Source: Chthoniobacterales bacterium (GTDB lineage Bacteria; Verrucomicrobiota; Verrucomicrobiia; Chthoniobacterales; Terrimicrobiaceae). Taken from it: a stretch of 38,503 nucleotides of DNA. Positions 24,155 to 32,210 of this stretch are shown in pieces. The notes under the pieces were generated by a model that was given only the letters and a program-made list of their open reading frames with translations, searched no databases and had not been told where the DNA came from. The position numbers were made by a program, and so were the translations under genes. The first letter of the stretch is position 1. Each line of letters starts with the position of its first letter. Where the stretch lies: assembly GCA_014879575.1 (NCBI GenBank), contig JACSRU010000084.1, positions 1 through 38,503 on the forward strand. Direction: 5' to 3'.

Positions 24155-25165
24155 TTATTTGGCTGCGGGTTCCGGTGGCAGTTCCACCATGCCGGGTTCA
24201 AACTTCATCCCGAGTCCCAGCCCGAGTTCCTGGAGTTTGTCCTTGATTTCGTTGAGCGATTTTTTGCCGAAGTTGCGGTATTTGAGCATCTCCGACTCGG
24301 TCTTCATGCCGAGCTGTCCGACGGTGGTGATGTTTGCGTTGTTGAGGCAGTTTGCCGCACGAACCGAGAGTTCGATTTCGTTCACGCTCATGTTCAGGAG
24401 TTTTTTCATGCGCGCATTTTCCTGGCTGACTTCCTGCGGGGTCTCGTCGAACTCGACCTGATCGTCATTGAATCCGACAAAGACATCGAGGTGGTGGCGA
24501 AGGATGGCGGAGGATTGCAGCAGCGCGTCATCGGGGGTGATGCGTCCGTCGGTCCAGATCTCAAGGATCACCTTGTCGTAGTCGGTGCGCTGTCCGACGC
24601 GGGTCGCCTCGACGGCGTATTTCACACGGGTTACTGGCGAGAAGATCGAGTCAATGGCGATCACCCCGATCGGTTGCTCGGCATGCTTGTTCTCGTCGCC
24701 GGTGGCGAAGCCGCGACCGACCTTGATCTCGAACTCCGCTTCAAATTTCGTCTTCTTGTCCAGCGTGCAGATGTGCTGGTCCGGGTTGAGAACCTCACAT
24801 TGTGCGGTGGATTCGATGTCCGCAGCGGTGACTGCGCCTTCCTTGTTGACGGAAAGCTTGAGGTTCCGGACCTCGTGGTCGTGGGCTTTGAACTTGATTT
24901 TTTTGAGGTTGAGAATGATTTCCACCACGTCCTCCACGACATGCGGAAGGCTGGTGAACTCGTGGGCCGCCCCCTCGATTTTTACCGAGGTGATCGCCGC
25001 CCCCTCCAGCGAGCTGAGGAGCACGCGGCGCAGGGAGTTTCCCAAGGTGTGGCCGTAACCCGCTTCGAAGGGCTCGGCGACAAATTTTGCGTAGTTATCG
25101 GTTGCGGTGGACTCGTCCTTGACGAGTGTTTTCGGCATTTCAAACCGACCAAGACGAACTGGCAT
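24155..25165 (-). CDS. rpoA: RNA polymerase alpha subunit
   Basis: A 336-residue alpha subunit. The N-terminal assembly domain (about 20-235) includes FVAEPFEAGYGHTLGNSLRR and VLLSSLEGAAITSVKIEGAA. A flexible linker is followed by the C-terminal domain (about 260-320) with the UP-element and activator-binding helix-hairpin-helix folds (NEIELSVRAANCLNNANITT, MLKYRNFGKKSLNEIKDKL). The ATG at 25165 gives the family N-terminus; the frame is open for 57 codons upstream without homology. rpsM, rpsK and rpsD do not precede it. It has its own promoter about 110 bp upstream. Confidence 0.97.
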   Translation of the reverse strand: MPVRLGRFEMPKTLVKDESTATDNYAKFVAEPFEAGYGHTLGNSLRRVLLSSLEGAAITSVKIEGAAHEFTSLPHVVEDVVEIILNLKKIKFKAHDHEVRNLKLSVNKEGAVTAADIESTAQCEVLNPDQHICTLDKKTKFEAEFEIKVGRGFATGDENKHAEQPIGVIAIDSIFSPVTRVKYAVEATRVGQRTDYDKVILEIWTDGRITPDDALLQSSAILRHHLDVFVGFNDDQVEFDETPQEVSQENARMKKLLNMSVNEIELSVRAANCLNNANITTVGQLGMKTESEMLKYRNFGKKSLNEIKDKLQELGLGLGMKFEPGMVELPPEPAAK

Positions 25166-25469
25166 TGTGATTTTTCTTTCGTTTTCTGCCGGGTTTCCCC
25201 GCTCGCGTTCGGCAGTCCGTCGAAGACGGCTGCCAGCAGGACCAACGGCAAAAGGGATTTTTGCGCGAAGCGGGAGAATCTCCCTTTCCCCGGAATTGTC
25301 AAGAAGTTGTTGGAAAGATTTTATGACCCCCCGCAATCCCTACCATCAATCCATCCCTTCGCCACCGACCAGCCCGACATTTTTTTCAGCAGGGCAGGGC
25401 GCGCGGTCTCGCGTCCTCCACAAGTTGGAACGGATGGACAAACATTTTTGGGTGTGATTGCTTGGCGGG
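25166..25469. other. Divergent intergenic region, rpoA / MBL hydrolase
   Basis: About 300 bp between divergent starts. It contains the rpoA promoter (25275-25302) and a near-perfect 13-bp palindrome GGGAGA-A-TCTCCC (25272-25284) over its -10. The part nearer the MBL gene shows no clear promoter, RNA or repeat. Confidence 0.4.
25275..25302 (-). promoter_or_regulatory. Sigma70 promoter of rpoA-rplQ
   Basis: A consensus TTGACA (25302-25297) is followed after 16 bp by GATTCT (25280-25275) on the minus strand. The leader to the ATG at 25165 would be about 100 nt. The -10 is weak and overlapped by a palindrome, leaving room for regulation. Confidence 0.5.
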
Positions 25470-26150
25470 ATGAAACTCACTTATTTCGGGCACTCGTGTT
25501 TTCTTGTGGAGGGTGGGGGGCAGAAGGTGTTGTTTGATCCGTTCATCCGGCCGAATCCCCTGGCCGGGAGCGTCAAGGTTTCGCAAATCGAGGCGGATTG
25601 GGTTCTGCTTTCCCACGGGCATGTGGATCATGTGGCGGATGTGGTGGAACTCGCGAACCAGACCGGTGCTCCGGTGATTGCGAACTGGGAGATTTGCGAA
25701 TGGCTGGGGCGCCAGGGATTGAAAAACCTTGTGGCGATGAACCACGGCGGGACGAAACGTCTGGGCTTTGGCAGCGTGAAGATGACAAATGCCATTCATT
25801 CGAGCACCCTGCCGGACGGCTCGGCGGGGGGGAATCCCGGCGGGTATGTTGTCGGGATGCCGGAGGGGGCATTTTATTACTCCGGAGACACGGCGCTGAC
25901 GATGGATATGAAGTTGATCCCCGAGGAATTTTCCATTCGGTTTGCGGTTCTGCCGATTGGCGACAATTTCACGATGGGGGCCGGCGACGCAGTCCGGGCG
26001 GCCCGGTTTGTGGACACGAATATTGTGGTGGGAGTCCACTACGGGACGTTTCCTCCGATCGAGATAGACCCGGGGGAGGCGCTCGGGATTTTTGAAAAGG
26101 CGGGGCTCACGCTTTTGTTGCCGGCGATCGGGGAAACCATCGAACTGTAG
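25470..26150 (+). CDS. Metal-dependent hydrolase, UPF0173 (MBL fold)
   Basis: A 226-residue metallo-beta-lactamase-fold protein of the UPF0173 type. MKLTYFGHSCFLVE opens the fold and LLSHGHVDHVADV carries the HxHxDH zinc motif. Further metal ligands are likely H110 in TNAIHSS, D141 in YYSGDTALT and H189 in VGVHYGTFP. GDNFTMGAGDAVRAA is typical of this group. Substrate is unknown for the family; the fold hydrolyses esters, phosphodiesters or lactones in the cytoplasm. The ATG at 25470 matches the conserved N-terminus; a TTG four codons earlier is in frame. It stands alone, convergent with tolC. Confidence 0.9.
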   Translation: MKLTYFGHSCFLVEGGGQKVLFDPFIRPNPLAGSVKVSQIEADWVLLSHGHVDHVADVVELANQTGAPVIANWEICEWLGRQGLKNLVAMNHGGTKRLGFGSVKMTNAIHSSTLPDGSAGGNPGGYVVGMPEGAFYYSGDTALTMDMKLIPEEFSIRFAVLPIGDNFTMGAGDAVRAARFVDTNIVVGVHYGTFPPIEIDPGEALGIFEKAGLTLLLPAIGETIEL

Positions 26151-26244: not shown

Positions 26245-27849
26245 TTACTCGATGCTGATACCGTTCTTTGCGAGAGTGAGTCCGGTGGCCCGCGCATAGG
26301 CAGCGATCGCGCGGATGTGATCCGCCCGTGCACGGATTTGATTGATCTCGGCTGTGGCGAGATCGCGCTGGAATTGGAGGACTTCGAAAGTGGTGGAGGT
26401 GCCGCTGGCGAGGCGGGCCTGTGCCGCTTCGAGGGTCTTTTCCGCAAAATCGCGCGCCATCGTGGTCGCCTCGATCCGCTTGCGGGTGGTGTCGATTTGT
26501 CCGGCGGCGTTATCCGCCTCGATGAGAATCGCCTGTTCCAGGCGCTTGAGATCCACGAGCCCCTTGGCCACTTCGAGTTTTGACGTTTCCAGCTGTCCGC
26601 GGGCTTCGCGATTTGGGATGGGCAGGCTCCCCACGATGCCCGTGCTCCACGTGTAGTTGTAATTCGCCTGTCCGGAAGCCCGCTGGATGCTGTCCGCAAG
26701 CGAGGTGTCGATGCCATTGACGCCGAAGCTCGCGACAAGATCAAGGCGCGGAAGGGTTTGGTTGCGGGAGAAGACGACATTGATCTGACGTTTTTGCAGG
26801 TCGAGGAGAGCCTGCCGGTAGTCGGGACGCATTTGGAATGCGAGAGGGAAATCCTTTTCGGGATCCGCCTTGACGTCGAGCAAATCCGGGAGCGACGCAA
26901 TTTTCAGGCGGGTTTTGAGAACCTGAAAAACCTCGTCCGTGACGAGTTGTTTGAGAAAGTTTTCGTTGTCGAGCATGTTGCGGTTGGCGACGAGAACCCG
27001 TTCCTCCCGGGCGGCGAGGTCCGAGCGGGCCTGCATGACATCAAGCGGGGACATGACGCCGATCTCCGCGCGTTTCAGGTTGTCGGAGAGGAGCTGGGCG
27101 GCGAGGGAGCGCGAGCGTTCCTCGACACCGAGATTTTCCCGCGTGAAAAAAAGTTCGCAGTAGGTGTTTACGGTGTCCGTGACCACTTCGATGATGCGCT
27201 CGCGGAGTGTCCATTCCGAGATGGCCCGATCCGCCCGGGAGAGGCGGAGCTGCGCGAGGTTCACATCGGTCCCGAAATTTTTCAGCAGGGGTTGCGTGAA
27301 GTTGAGTCCGAAAAACGAATTGTAGCGATCATTCGTGAGCCGGTTGTCGGTGTTTCTGGTTGTTGAGGCACCGATGTCGTAGGTGAGCCCCCAAGGGGTG
27401 AGTCCGGCAATGCTGGAGTCCAATTCGAACCCGCTTGTGCGCGCAAAGAGGAGGGGCGTGTCTCCCCCGGGAACCGCCGTCGGTGTGTCGAGTTCGCTGT
27501 TCAGCGTGCGCAGTTCCTGGTTGTTTTCGTCGTAGGTCGTCGAGACTTCCGCCACGGGATCAAACTTTCCCGAAGCGGAGAGTTGCTTGGCCTTTGCGAT
27601 CTGCGGGGTGTAGCGTTCCGCACGGATTTGGAAATTTTTTCGCAGGGCCATCTGGATCGCCTCCCTGAGGTCGATGGTGAGGGCTCCATCCGTTGAAGCC
27701 AATGCGGACGGGAGGAGGACGCCGGCAAGGAGCCAGGTGCCCGCTCTCCGACTCCACCGCAGAACCCGACCTTCGGCCCGGGAAGGGCGAGGAGTGCCGG
27801 GCGCGATGTCGCTTGCTGGCAGAGGCTCCTTTTTCAGCATGATCTTCAT
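26245..27849 (-). CDS. TolC-family outer-membrane channel
   Basis: A 534-residue outer-membrane efflux protein. An N-terminal signal (about 28-52, preceded by a basic stretch) is followed by two repeats of helix-barrel-helix. LTIDLREAIQMALRKNFQIR (near 57) and RAEIGVMSPLDVMQARSDLA belong to the first, and AQARLASGTSTTFEVLQFQR with DLATAEINQIRARADHIRA near 490 belong to the second; these are the conserved TolC helical segments. It would trimerise as the exit duct for an efflux or type I secretion system. No RND pump, membrane fusion protein or ABC partner lies in the window except the distant FHA-ABC gene. It follows the PBP gene by 40 bp on the same strand. Confidence 0.9.
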   Translation of the reverse strand: MKIMLKKEPLPASDIAPGTPRPSRAEGRVLRWSRRAGTWLLAGVLLPSALASTDGALTIDLREAIQMALRKNFQIRAERYTPQIAKAKQLSASGKFDPVAEVSTTYDENNQELRTLNSELDTPTAVPGGDTPLLFARTSGFELDSSIAGLTPWGLTYDIGASTTRNTDNRLTNDRYNSFFGLNFTQPLLKNFGTDVNLAQLRLSRADRAISEWTLRERIIEVVTDTVNTYCELFFTRENLGVEERSRSLAAQLLSDNLKRAEIGVMSPLDVMQARSDLAAREERVLVANRNMLDNENFLKQLVTDEVFQVLKTRLKIASLPDLLDVKADPEKDFPLAFQMRPDYRQALLDLQKRQINVVFSRNQTLPRLDLVASFGVNGIDTSLADSIQRASGQANYNYTWSTGIVGSLPIPNREARGQLETSKLEVAKGLVDLKRLEQAILIEADNAAGQIDTTRKRIEATTMARDFAEKTLEAAQARLASGTSTTFEVLQFQRDLATAEINQIRARADHIRAIAAYARATGLTLAKNGISIE

Positions 27850-27889: not shown

Positions 27890-30346
27890 TTAGAAATCCA
27901 TCAGGGCGGGGGGTGGGAGTTGGATGACCGGCTTGTCCAGCGGGGAATCCAGCGGAGCCAGACTCTCGGCTTTGCGGATTTCCGGTTCTGCTGGTGGGGT
28001 GGGTGCCGCTGCCTCCGGCGCAGGGGGCGTCGGGACGGACGCAGCAGCATCCGGCGAGGCGGTGGGCTCCTCCTTCTTTTCCGGTGTCACAGCGATCGCC
28101 TTGGCGACTGGAATGGACGCATCGTCGAGAGCCTCCATGCCTGGGCGAACCGATTGATAGACATCGTTGAAGCCAAGAAGGGTGGGAGCGACAACCGCCA
28201 CCGGACGGATCGTCGCGAGGTCCACCGCCGCCGCCGCGCGGGGCCACTCGGCTTCCTCGTATTGCTTCGCGTAATTTCTCATTCCGCCTCCGTGGATGTC
28301 GCAACGGATTTTAGGAATTTCGGATTCGGTGCCAAACTCCTTGTAGGAAAGGGGGAGGGAGCTGGTAATCGCTCCCGTCGCGTCCGTTGATTCCAGCGTG
28401 CATCGCGGAGTCGCCAGTAGTCCGGATGTCCGGCAGATTTCCACCTCCTTGAGCCCCGAAGGCCTTTGGAAAGGCTGGGGAGGGAAGTCGGCGACCGAGG
28501 CATTCATGATTTTCGTCCAGATCGGCAGGGCGAGATCCTTTCCGAAGGCGCCGCGGTAGATCTTCGTCGGCTTGTCAAATCCCACCCAGACCCCGCAGGT
28601 CACGGCCGAGGTGTAACCGAAGAAATAGGTGTCCGTGAAATTGTAGGCCGTGCCGGACTTGCCTGCGACCGGGAAGTTTCCGAGTCCGAACTCCCTGGCC
28701 GCCGCCGCGCCGACGCCCAGGCGCATAATATCCTCCAGCCCCGCATGCACCTGAAACGCCGCCTCGGGGGAGATGGCTTTTTGCATCCCGCGGGGGGCCT
28801 CGTAAATCACCGTGCCATCGGTGTCGAGAATCCGTTTGATGAGGTGGATTTCCTTCGGATGGCGTCCCCCGTTGGGAAATACCGAGAAGGCCAGAGTTAC
28901 CTCATCCAGGGTCATCTCGCTGCTCCCGAGGAAGCTGTTCGAATAATCGCGCAGAGGCGTTGTGATGCCCGCTGCCGCCACCGTTTTTTTGAGAGCCTCA
29001 AGACCGGTTTTCATGCCGAGACGGACCGTGGCCGCATTCTTGCCTTTAACGAGAGCCTCCCGGGTGGTCATGGGGCCTTCGTATTCATTATCCGCCTTCT
29101 CGACCCCCCACTCCCCGAGCAGACCGGTCTCCCCGCCCACCATGACGAACCGATTGTCCAGACAGGCGTCCTGGACAATCTCTCCGGGGAAAATCCCGTT
29201 CTCGTAAGCACTCGCAAAGACAAACGGTGTGAAGGCGGTTCCCATGGGACGTGATCCCTGGACGGCGCGGTTGTATTCGCTGTGCTTGAAATCGCGTCCG
29301 CCGACCATCGCGAGAACGCCCCCCGTCGCATTATCGAGAGCCAGAGCGGCCCCTTGGAGATACTTGGGTTCCGGCATTTTCGAGGCCATGTTTCCCCGGT
29401 TGATGGCCTCCTCAATGGTTTTTGTGGCATCCCGGTATTGGGAAAATGTCGGATGCGTGTAGGACGGGGCGGATTCCACCTGGGACAAAACATCCCTTGT
29501 GGCGCGTTCCGCCGCCCGCTGCATTTCCGAATCCAGAGTCGTCTCGATCCGGTAGCCTCCGTTCATCGCGCGGTCGAAGCCGAGAGCCTTGATGGCCTGC
29601 TGGCGGATGAGATCGACCGGGTAGGAAACCTTGAAGGGATTTGTGCGTTTGACGGCATAGAGTTTCATTTCCAGTTGTTCCTTCAACTGATTCCGAGTGA
29701 TGAAGCCCATCTCCCGCATGCGCCGGAGAACGAAATTCCTGACCTCGGTTGCGCCTTCAATGTTGTTCCAGGGCGAGAGGACCTGGGGGCTTTTGAGCAG
29801 CCCGGCCAGCATCGCGCATTGCCCAATGTCGAGGTCGCTTGCCGGTCGTCCGAAATATCCGCGGGCCGCAGCCTCGACCCCATAGAATCCGCTGCCGAAA
29901 TACACCCGGTTCAAATAGAGTTCCATGATCCGGTCCTTCGGGAAATTTTTTTCGATCCGCCAGGCCAGGAACATCTCCACAAATTTTCGTTCGTAAGTTC
30001 GTTCGCGGAGATCAAACGAGTTCCGCGCGAGTTGCTGGGTCACGGTGCTTGCGCCCTGCGAGATTTTCCCCCTCCGGTAGTTGGCGATGGCGGCCCGCAA
30101 AATCCCGAAGTAGTCCACTCCGTCGTGTTCGTAAAATTTGTTGTCCTCCGCAGCGATCACTGCCTTGGTGAGCATCGGAGAGATCCGGTCGTAGGGGACT
30201 GGCTGGCGGTTTTGAATGAAGATTTTGCCAAATTCCTGTCCTTTGCGGTCGTAGAGGACCGAGGCCGCCTCCATGCTGCCGACTTTTTCAAGGTCGAATT
30301 CTTCGGCCCGCTTCTCGAAGCGGAAGGAAAAAATTCCGAACGCCAC
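27890..30346 (-). CDS. Class A PBP-like peptidoglycan glycosyltransferase with degenerate transpeptidase site
   Basis: An 818-residue protein as counted from GTG 30346. The GT51 domain is complete: AVIAAEDNKFYEHDG with catalytic E67, KISQGASTVTQQLARN (94-109), KFVEMFLAWRIEKNF and YLNRVYFG. The transpeptidase-like domain (about 330-600) keeps its order but not its chemistry. The SxxK box reads T370-A-F-T373 (context GTAFTPF, normally GSxFKPF), SxN reads G435-K-N437, and only KSGT (563-566) is retained. Penicillin-sensitive cross-linking is therefore doubtful; polymerisation of lipid II should be intact. A Pro/Ala-rich tail ends the protein. The membrane anchor lies upstream of this start (see next entry). 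It is transcribed towards tolC. Confidence 0.88.
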   Translation of the reverse strand: MAFGIFSFRFEKRAEEFDLEKVGSMEAASVLYDRKGQEFGKIFIQNRQPVPYDRISPMLTKAVIAAEDNKFYEHDGVDYFGILRAAIANYRRGKISQGASTVTQQLARNSFDLRERTYERKFVEMFLAWRIEKNFPKDRIMELYLNRVYFGSGFYGVEAAARGYFGRPASDLDIGQCAMLAGLLKSPQVLSPWNNIEGATEVRNFVLRRMREMGFITRNQLKEQLEMKLYAVKRTNPFKVSYPVDLIRQQAIKALGFDRAMNGGYRIETTLDSEMQRAAERATRDVLSQVESAPSYTHPTFSQYRDATKTIEEAINRGNMASKMPEPKYLQGAALALDNATGGVLAMVGGRDFKHSEYNRAVQGSRPMGTAFTPFVFASAYENGIFPGEIVQDACLDNRFVMVGGETGLLGEWGVEKADNEYEGPMTTREALVKGKNAATVRLGMKTGLEALKKTVAAAGITTPLRDYSNSFLGSSEMTLDEVTLAFSVFPNGGRHPKEIHLIKRILDTDGTVIYEAPRGMQKAISPEAAFQVHAGLEDIMRLGVGAAAAREFGLGNFPVAGKSGTAYNFTDTYFFGYTSAVTCGVWVGFDKPTKIYRGAFGKDLALPIWTKIMNASVADFPPQPFQRPSGLKEVEICRTSGLLATPRCTLESTDATGAITSSLPLSYKEFGTESEIPKIRCDIHGGGMRNYAKQYEEAEWPRAAAAVDLATIRPVAVVAPTLLGFNDVYQSVRPGMEALDDASIPVAKAIAVTPEKKEEPTASPDAAASVPTPPAPEAAAPTPPAEPEIRKAESLAPLDSPLDKPVIQLPPPALMDF

Positions 30347-30483
30347 CCAGGCGGCAAAGCCTCCGAAAAAGAGCAGGCCAAGCGGAATCCAGAGCCGTTT
30401 GCGCTGATACAGCGGCTTGCTCGGACGACGCTTCCTTTTTTCCCAACTGTAATATCTTTTGCTGATGGGGGGTTATTTTCCAT
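30347..30483 (-). other. In-frame N-terminal extension of the PBP gene lacking a standard start
   Basis: Reading the PBP frame upstream of GTG 30346 gives WIPLGLLFFGGFAAWV, an obvious transmembrane anchor, preceded by the basic stretch SKRYYSWEKRKRRPSKPLYQ. This is exactly what class A PBPs need. The frame runs back to a stop without any ATG, GTG or TTG; only AUC (30466), CUG or AUU could start it. An ATG at 30483 (MENNPP) lies one frame off, separated by a run of six C. One more C would join it perfectly. The true start is therefore AUC, or ATG 30483 with slippage or a sequence error. Confidence 0.65.
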
Positions 30484-30599: not shown

Positions 30600-32210
30600 A
30601 TGCCAATGCCCGCCCTTCAAAATCGCACCTTTCGCATATTGATGATGGGTGTCGCCATGCTGGGAGCATTGGCGGCCATTGGGGGGTCCGCCTCTCTGTC
30701 CTTCCGGCAGGCCCGCCTGGCGGCCATTGAGTCCATGCAGGAAAAAACCGGGATCTGGGCGCAAGCCATCAGCCGCCTGGTGGACGGCGCTCGCGCGAAA
30801 CTTCAACTTCTGGACCAAGCCACCCAGGGCGAGATCAACCAACAGACAGCGAATCTTCTCAGGCGGCTCGTCGTGGAGAGCACGATTTTCCGCGAAGCCT
30901 GGATGGTAAAGGATGGTCGGATGGTCTGTTCGGATGTCGGAGTGCTTGCGGAGCCTGTTCCGATGGCTTCGGATCTTTGCCAACTCGGCTCGGTTGCGGA
31001 AGTCCGGTTGCTGCCCCGGCCGAGTCAGGGGGACCAATCGGACGCGATTTTGATCAACTACAATACCGGAAAAGGCTACTTCTTCGGACTGTCGATTCCG
31101 ACACAGACCATCGGGGAGCTGATGCGCTATGGCGACAGCAACGCGGCCCACGCGACGTTTTTCATGAGGCAGGATGGCGTTGTGCTGGATCGCTCGCTCA
31201 ATTCCGTTCCCAATGTCACTCCTCCCACAAAGGTTCCGCCTGCCGGGCTTTCGGAAACCCAGGATGCGCTGATCTACTCGCGGGTTGTCCCGGGATATAA
31301 TTATGCGGTGGTCGCCATTTTTCCCAAGAAGGCTCTCTGGTCGCTTTGGGCGCAGAGCGTGCCCTTCTACGGGGGACTGGCCTTGGTGCTGGCCCTCTGT
31401 TTTTTCCTGGCGGCCTGGGTCGCCAACGCCCAGACCCTCTCGCTGGAGTCCGAATTGCGTGAAGCGGCCCGCCTCAAACAGGTGATTGCGCACTACCAAC
31501 CGATCCTGAACCTCCAGACTGGGAAATGCGTCGGGCTGGAAGTCCTCATGCGCTGGCAACATCCCACGCGGGGACTCGTGCCCCCGCTTGCGTTCATCCC
31601 CGAGGCCGAGCGAACCGGCATCATCACGGAATTGACCGAATGCATGATGGTTGGTGCCCTCGAAGAACTCGAGCCGGTGTTCAGGGATCATCCCCACTTG
31701 CATGCGGCGATCAACATCCCGGTTCAGACACTCACCAACCCGTCCTTTCCCGCGCATGTTGACCGGCTCATCCGGGGAAGGTTTCGCTACAAAAATATTT
31801 CCTTCGAGTTGACGGAAAGCACCTCATTGACGGATGCCGCGCTGGGGCAGTTGCGGGTGATGAAGGATCTGGGAATCCGCCTGGCTGTGGATGACTTCGG
31901 AACCGGGTATTCGAATCTTCGCTACCTCTCGTTGTTTCCCTTCGATTTTCTCAAGGTGGACAAGGCCTTTGTTGACGGCATCACCAACGAAACGAAGAGT
32001 TCGGGGCTTGTGGACCAGATTGTTTCCATCGGGCGGGCTTGCGGAATGGAACTCATAGCAGAAGGCATCGAGCACCCGTCGCAGGTGGAGTATCTGAAAA
32101 ACCTGGGTGTCGAGTTTGGGCAGGGCTATTATTTTGCCCCTCCGGCACCGATTCATGAGCTGATCGAATGGCTCGCCCGGAACGCCGAAGGCGACAAGTG
32201 CCTGTTATAG
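30600..32210 (+). CDS. Membrane CSS-EAL c-di-GMP phosphodiesterase
   Basis: A 536-residue inner-membrane protein. One transmembrane helix near 12-32, a periplasmic domain (about 35-245) and a second helix (256-275) precede the EAL domain (about 285-525). The periplasmic part has C110-S-D and C127, resembling the CSS-motif sensor whose disulfide state controls PDE activity. The EAL motif reads E314-V-L. The other metal and catalytic residues are present: N372, E403, D431-D432 (DDFGTGYSN), K452 and E488. It should hydrolyse c-di-GMP to pGpG in response to periplasmic redox. There is no GGDEF domain. It may lower the signal that activates BcsA. It is divergent from the PBP gene and followed by a hairpin. 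Confidence 0.92.
   Translation: MPMPALQNRTFRILMMGVAMLGALAAIGGSASLSFRQARLAAIESMQEKTGIWAQAISRLVDGARAKLQLLDQATQGEINQQTANLLRRLVVESTIFREAWMVKDGRMVCSDVGVLAEPVPMASDLCQLGSVAEVRLLPRPSQGDQSDAILINYNTGKGYFFGLSIPTQTIGELMRYGDSNAAHATFFMRQDGVVLDRSLNSVPNVTPPTKVPPAGLSETQDALIYSRVVPGYNYAVVAIFPKKALWSLWAQSVPFYGGLALVLALCFFLAAWVANAQTLSLESELREAARLKQVIAHYQPILNLQTGKCVGLEVLMRWQHPTRGLVPPLAFIPEAERTGIITELTECMMVGALEELEPVFRDHPHLHAAINIPVQTLTNPSFPAHVDRLIRGRFRYKNISFELTESTSLTDAALGQLRVMKDLGIRLAVDDFGTGYSNLRYLSLFPFDFLKVDKAFVDGITNETKSSGLVDQIVSIGRACGMELIAEGIEHPSQVEYLKNLGVEFGQGYYFAPPAPIHELIEWLARNAEGDKCLL

Follow-up and report, generated by a model that had tools for sequence, protein, structure and literature searches.

A class A penicillin-binding protein with a conserved, apparently inactive transpeptidase domain in Chthoniobacterales and Verrucomicrobiales

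The window, by which we mean the whole stretch of 38,503 nucleotides analysed from a Chthoniobacterales bacterium, carries on its minus strand a gene for a protein of the class A penicillin-binding protein (PBP) type at 27890–30466. The gene comprises 858 codons plus a stop, as judged by the open frame and by N-terminal homology. On that strand it encodes an N-terminal transmembrane helix (30323–30394; the hydrophobic stretch LWIPLGLLFFGGFAAWVAFGIFSF, read from the sequence), a GT51 glycosyltransferase (GT) domain (29717–30232, PF00912) and a transpeptidase-fold domain (28604–29353, PF00905). These are followed by a C-terminal cysteine motif, CRTSGLLATPRC (28400–28435), then CDIHG and a proline-rich tail, as read from the translation; the Cys columns of the motif are conserved in the alignment of orthologues. 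The neighbours, judged by eye from their translations, look like RpoA (24155–25336, minus), a metallo-beta-lactamase-fold hydrolase (25458–26150, plus), a TolC-like outer membrane protein (26245–27849, minus) and an EAL-domain protein (30600–32210, plus), and these are not conserved beside the orthologues. Nine 20-kb contexts of orthologues contained no neighbour gene shared with the window; apart from the gene itself, the matches found there were isolated weak ones and frames antisense to it. No copies were found in the viral contigs searched.

The start codon is probably the ATC at 30464–30466 rather than the listed GTG at 30346, which falls within the transmembrane helix. There is an in-frame TAA at 30475, and ATG, GTG and TTG are absent ahead of the helix. 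The ATC aligns with the ATG of relatives and precedes a conserved N-terminal peptide that ends in YSWE. Most Terrimicrobiaceae-like loci have ATC, ATA or ATT before this peptide, and other loci have ATG there; a stop codon frequently lies just upstream. A GGAAA-like sequence lies upstream of the ATC. These alignments are most simply read as a near-cognate start that has been conserved, as for infC, and control of initiation there by IF3 is possible.

Both domains are recognized by Pfam above the cut-offs (Transgly, E 8e-63, residues 39–210; Transpeptidase, E 8e-19, residues 332–581; numbering here is that of the 818-residue translation from GTG 30346). The GT51 motifs EDxxFxxH, GxSTxTQQ, RKxxE and YLN are all present and are invariant in the orthologues. 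The transpeptidase fold of a class A PBP is likewise supported by Pfam, by profile alignment and by structure prediction, but its active-site boxes are altered. In place of SxxK the protein has TAFT (residues 370–373, 29228–29239), whose first Thr aligns without gaps to the catalytic Ser column of the Pseudomonas and Acinetobacter PBP1a proteins. The SxN position reads GKN (residues 435–437, 29036–29044), and the KTG box is kept as KSGT (residues 563–566, 28649–28660). A preliminary description of this DNA had reported the replaced Ser and Lys, the GKN box, the remaining KSGT triad and the intact GT51 motifs, and these observations all hold; its position for the first box, 29224–29275, agrees within a few bases with that of GTAFTPF (29222–29242). 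The protein scores below the curated cut-off for the PBP1A family (TIGR02074, 488.6 against 508.75) and below that for monofunctional glycosyltransferases (MGT; TIGR02070, 161.4 against 182.65), a class defined as GT51 without the transpeptidase domain that is present here. An AlphaFold2 model (mean pLDDT 85.6, pTM 0.72) finds its best structural matches among class A PBPs, including E. coli PBP1b and, with Z 45.5 and an rmsd of 1.8 Å over 377 residues, P. aeruginosa PBP1a. As modelled, the transpeptidase fold is complete and only the chemistry is missing.

Among 58 related genomes, counting that of the window itself, 53 have the orthologue, whole or partial. Of the five genomes without one, two are 0.9 Mb in size and yielded no GT51 protein. 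In all, the orthologues found span Chthoniobacterales and Verrucomicrobiales. Every orthologue covering the site has the Thr, from 84% identity downwards. Most of the same genomes also encode another class A PBP, at about 40% identity, and those whose boxes were read have normal SxxK, SRN and KTGT. The window's genome (about 3.6 Mb in 178 contigs) encodes three GT51, eight YkuD and two SEDS proteins. Three loci in Verrucomicrobiales-like genomes hold further diverged paralogues, in which WGGT and FSGS replace KTGT and one of which has SxxE. No GT51 protein was found in 14 other genomes examined; genomes of this kind span many other families of the class, and some of them hold six or seven YkuD genes.

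In a FastTree phylogeny of 121 sequences, from which near-duplicates had been removed, all 90 Thr sequences fall in one clade (support 0.891), apart from the SxxK paralogues of the same genomes. Normal SxxK, which the preliminary description had named, together with signs of a sequence error, as evidence against its reading if found in near relatives, is thus confined to a separate clade. By parsimony, the Ser-to-Thr replacement requires one change on the tree and none afterwards within the clade, and all four ACN codons are used for this Thr. The table of codons and residues was selected on Thr, yet no orthologue lacking it appears in the tree or the alignments. The old Lys position has changed about 23 times from a root state of Leu, above the median of 16. 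It is now mostly Thr, Leu, Val, Ala, Gln, Phe, His, Ile or Ser, with a Lys kept or regained beside the Thr, as a TxxK pair, in 12 of 161 sequences. The Ser of SxN has changed eight times and its Asn ten, compared with two changes for the Lys of KTG and none for its Gly. The Lys of KTG is present in 159 of 159 orthologues and lost only in two of the further diverged paralogues. Of the TxxT/GxN pattern, whose conservation the preliminary description left to be checked, the leading Thr is invariant, while the second Thr varies and the first residue of the SxN box is Gly in 86 sequences, Ser in 72 and Ala in two.

The Thr clade also has a motif of its own between the SxxK and SxN boxes, GGxxGxLGEWG (GGETGLLGEWG in the window, residues 404–414, 29105–29137, minus strand). 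It hardly varies within the clade and is missing from the SxxK paralogues, and the spacing from Ser/Thr to SxN is about six residues longer in the Thr clade. In the AlphaFold model the motif falls where confidence is low. Median dN/dS values, which are rough because dS is 1–1.5 and near saturation, are 0.065 for the GT domain and 0.070 for the transpeptidase domain in the Thr clade; the corresponding values for the SxxK clade are 0.115 and 0.133. Since the altered domain evolves about as slowly as the GT domain beside it, it is maintained under a constraint comparable to that of working domains. The loss of catalytic residues could by itself have signified a decaying gene or a sequencing error. 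That explanation is refuted: the presence of the Thr in all orthologues from 84% identity down excludes chance or error, and conservation across two orders, dN/dS of about 0.07 and the intact frame exclude a pseudogene. Judged from the tree and these rates, this is an old, single loss that has been kept since, a maintained type of protein rather than a broken gene.

The Thr group almost certainly includes Akkermansia, a gut bacterium. In one of its genomes, an M60 peptidase shows full identity over 486 residues with PDB entry 7sci, an Akkermansia muciniphila protein, and the genome itself is therefore probably A. muciniphila. Of its three GT51 proteins, one has SxxK, another is the orthologue of the window protein and has TxxL, and the third, of 602 residues (L265, G167:C1:1490356-1490880), has a second, different degenerate transpeptidase domain, in which the first box reads GDLFTPI, SxN is absent and GNTG stands for KTG. 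From their sequences, two of the three GT51 proteins of Akkermansia appear to have dead transpeptidase domains, which would bear on its wall chemistry and its response to beta-lactams. A published survey counts Akkermansia among the bacteria that keep a class A PBP, and its available text says nothing about the active sites (PMC8406291).

We consider it probable from these sequences that the protein is anchored in the membrane and polymerizes lipid II, and that its transpeptidase domain is conserved as a pseudo-enzyme which retains part of the substrate pocket; other enzymes would cross-link its product. The preliminary description had proposed a monofunctional lipid II polymerase retaining a pseudo-transpeptidase, and that remains the reading that best fits the conserved Thr, the kept KTG box and the purifying selection. 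The ancestor would have been a bifunctional class A PBP that lost transpeptidase catalysis once, in the ancestor common to Chthoniobacterales and Verrucomicrobiales, with the GT51 half still polymerizing lipid II and the transpeptidase domain kept since then as a pseudo-enzyme. The intact GT51 motifs, together with the precedent of the S510A mutant of E. coli PBP1b discussed below, make it likely that the GT domain is active. Because the nucleophile and the general base are both lost, formation of an acyl-enzyme is very unlikely. The residual pocket may bind the stem peptide, or it may hold the domain in shape for control of the polymerase or docking of a partner; a kept hydroxyl and KTG box with drifting proton-shuttle positions would be expected if binding or shape, and not catalysis, were selected. 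Cross-linking would fall to the SxxK class A PBP, to class B PBPs or to L,D-transpeptidases. If so, this is a natural, ancient and widespread uncoupling of the two activities of class A PBPs, and it raises the question of what the transpeptidase fold gives to a polymerase that does not cross-link.

Other readings of the retained domain fit less well. It might still be an active transpeptidase using the Thr as nucleophile with another base, such as the Lys of KTG, as would suit the invariant Thr, the nearly invariant Lys and the TxxK pairs of a few lineages. Thr is a poor nucleophile in SxxK-type enzymes, however, and most lineages have replaced the general-base position and often the Ser and Asn of SxN as well, so that we regard this as very improbable. 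Wall-synthesis pseudo-enzymes often serve as regulators, and the whole protein might similarly be a scaffold whose GT domain is also inactive; the invariance of every GT51 catalytic motif across the orthologues makes this hardly credible. It is also unlikely, though less so, that the pseudo-active site is a ligand sensor, binding stem peptide or beta-lactam noncovalently and switching the polymerase on or off. Retention of the Thr hydroxyl and the KTG Lys while the proton-shuttle residues drift, and addition of the invariant GGxxGxLGEWG stretch, would suit such a sensor. However, the binding site is not uniformly kept, since in Akkermansia-like genomes the Asn of SxN is Ile or Val, and there shape or docking is favoured over precise ligand recognition.

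A more specific form of the polymerase reading, to which we give only a small chance, is a beta-lactam-insensitive glycan polymerase whose pseudo-transpeptidase holds the stem peptide uncut and passes the strand on to YkuD enzymes. In the phylum sample, the 43 genomes with the pseudo-transpeptidase protein have from 5 to at least 13 YkuD matches, and the others mostly have 0–4. Two families break the pattern: f16, with 6–8 YkuD matches and no GT51 protein in five of six genomes checked, and f19, with five YkuD matches and a normal SxxK protein. The association is therefore suggestive but confounded by ancestry, and may reflect nothing else. If this reading were true, it would mean a branch of wall synthesis independent of DD-transpeptidation.

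Among known systems, the PBP1a-type class A PBPs (P. aeruginosa 4oon, A. baumannii 3udf; TIGR02074) share the domain order, the GT51 motifs, the transpeptidase fold and the KTG box. The window protein differs from them in its replaced SxxK and SxN boxes and its extra GGxxGxLGEWG, and in the alignment it has no counterpart of the Pseudomonas PBP1a stretch of about 90 residues between the GT and transpeptidase domains. MGT proteins are alike in that GT51 activity is expected without transpeptidation, but they lack the transpeptidase domain that is kept here as a full fold. The S510A mutant of E. coli PBP1b polymerizes lipid II without cross-linking, and an L,D-transpeptidase can act as its cross-linker (PMC5089857); it offers an analogy for an active GT domain joined to a dead transpeptidase domain, although it is an engineered laboratory mutant and not a natural protein. 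Class A PBPs without SxxK are already known from Streptomyces, where the available text of one study counts 13 of 100, mostly keeping SxN and KTG and with both domains preserved, and regards them as capable of acting as PBPs (PMC6273383). These are a precedent for the kind, in another phylum, and that text describes no single Ser-to-Thr change, selection or added motif. In the open-access literature that we searched, no class A PBP with a pseudo-transpeptidase was described from Verrucomicrobia or Akkermansia. As far as that literature shows, what is new is an orthologue group of single origin that spans orders, in which the Thr is fixed, a new motif is present and the constraint has been measured.
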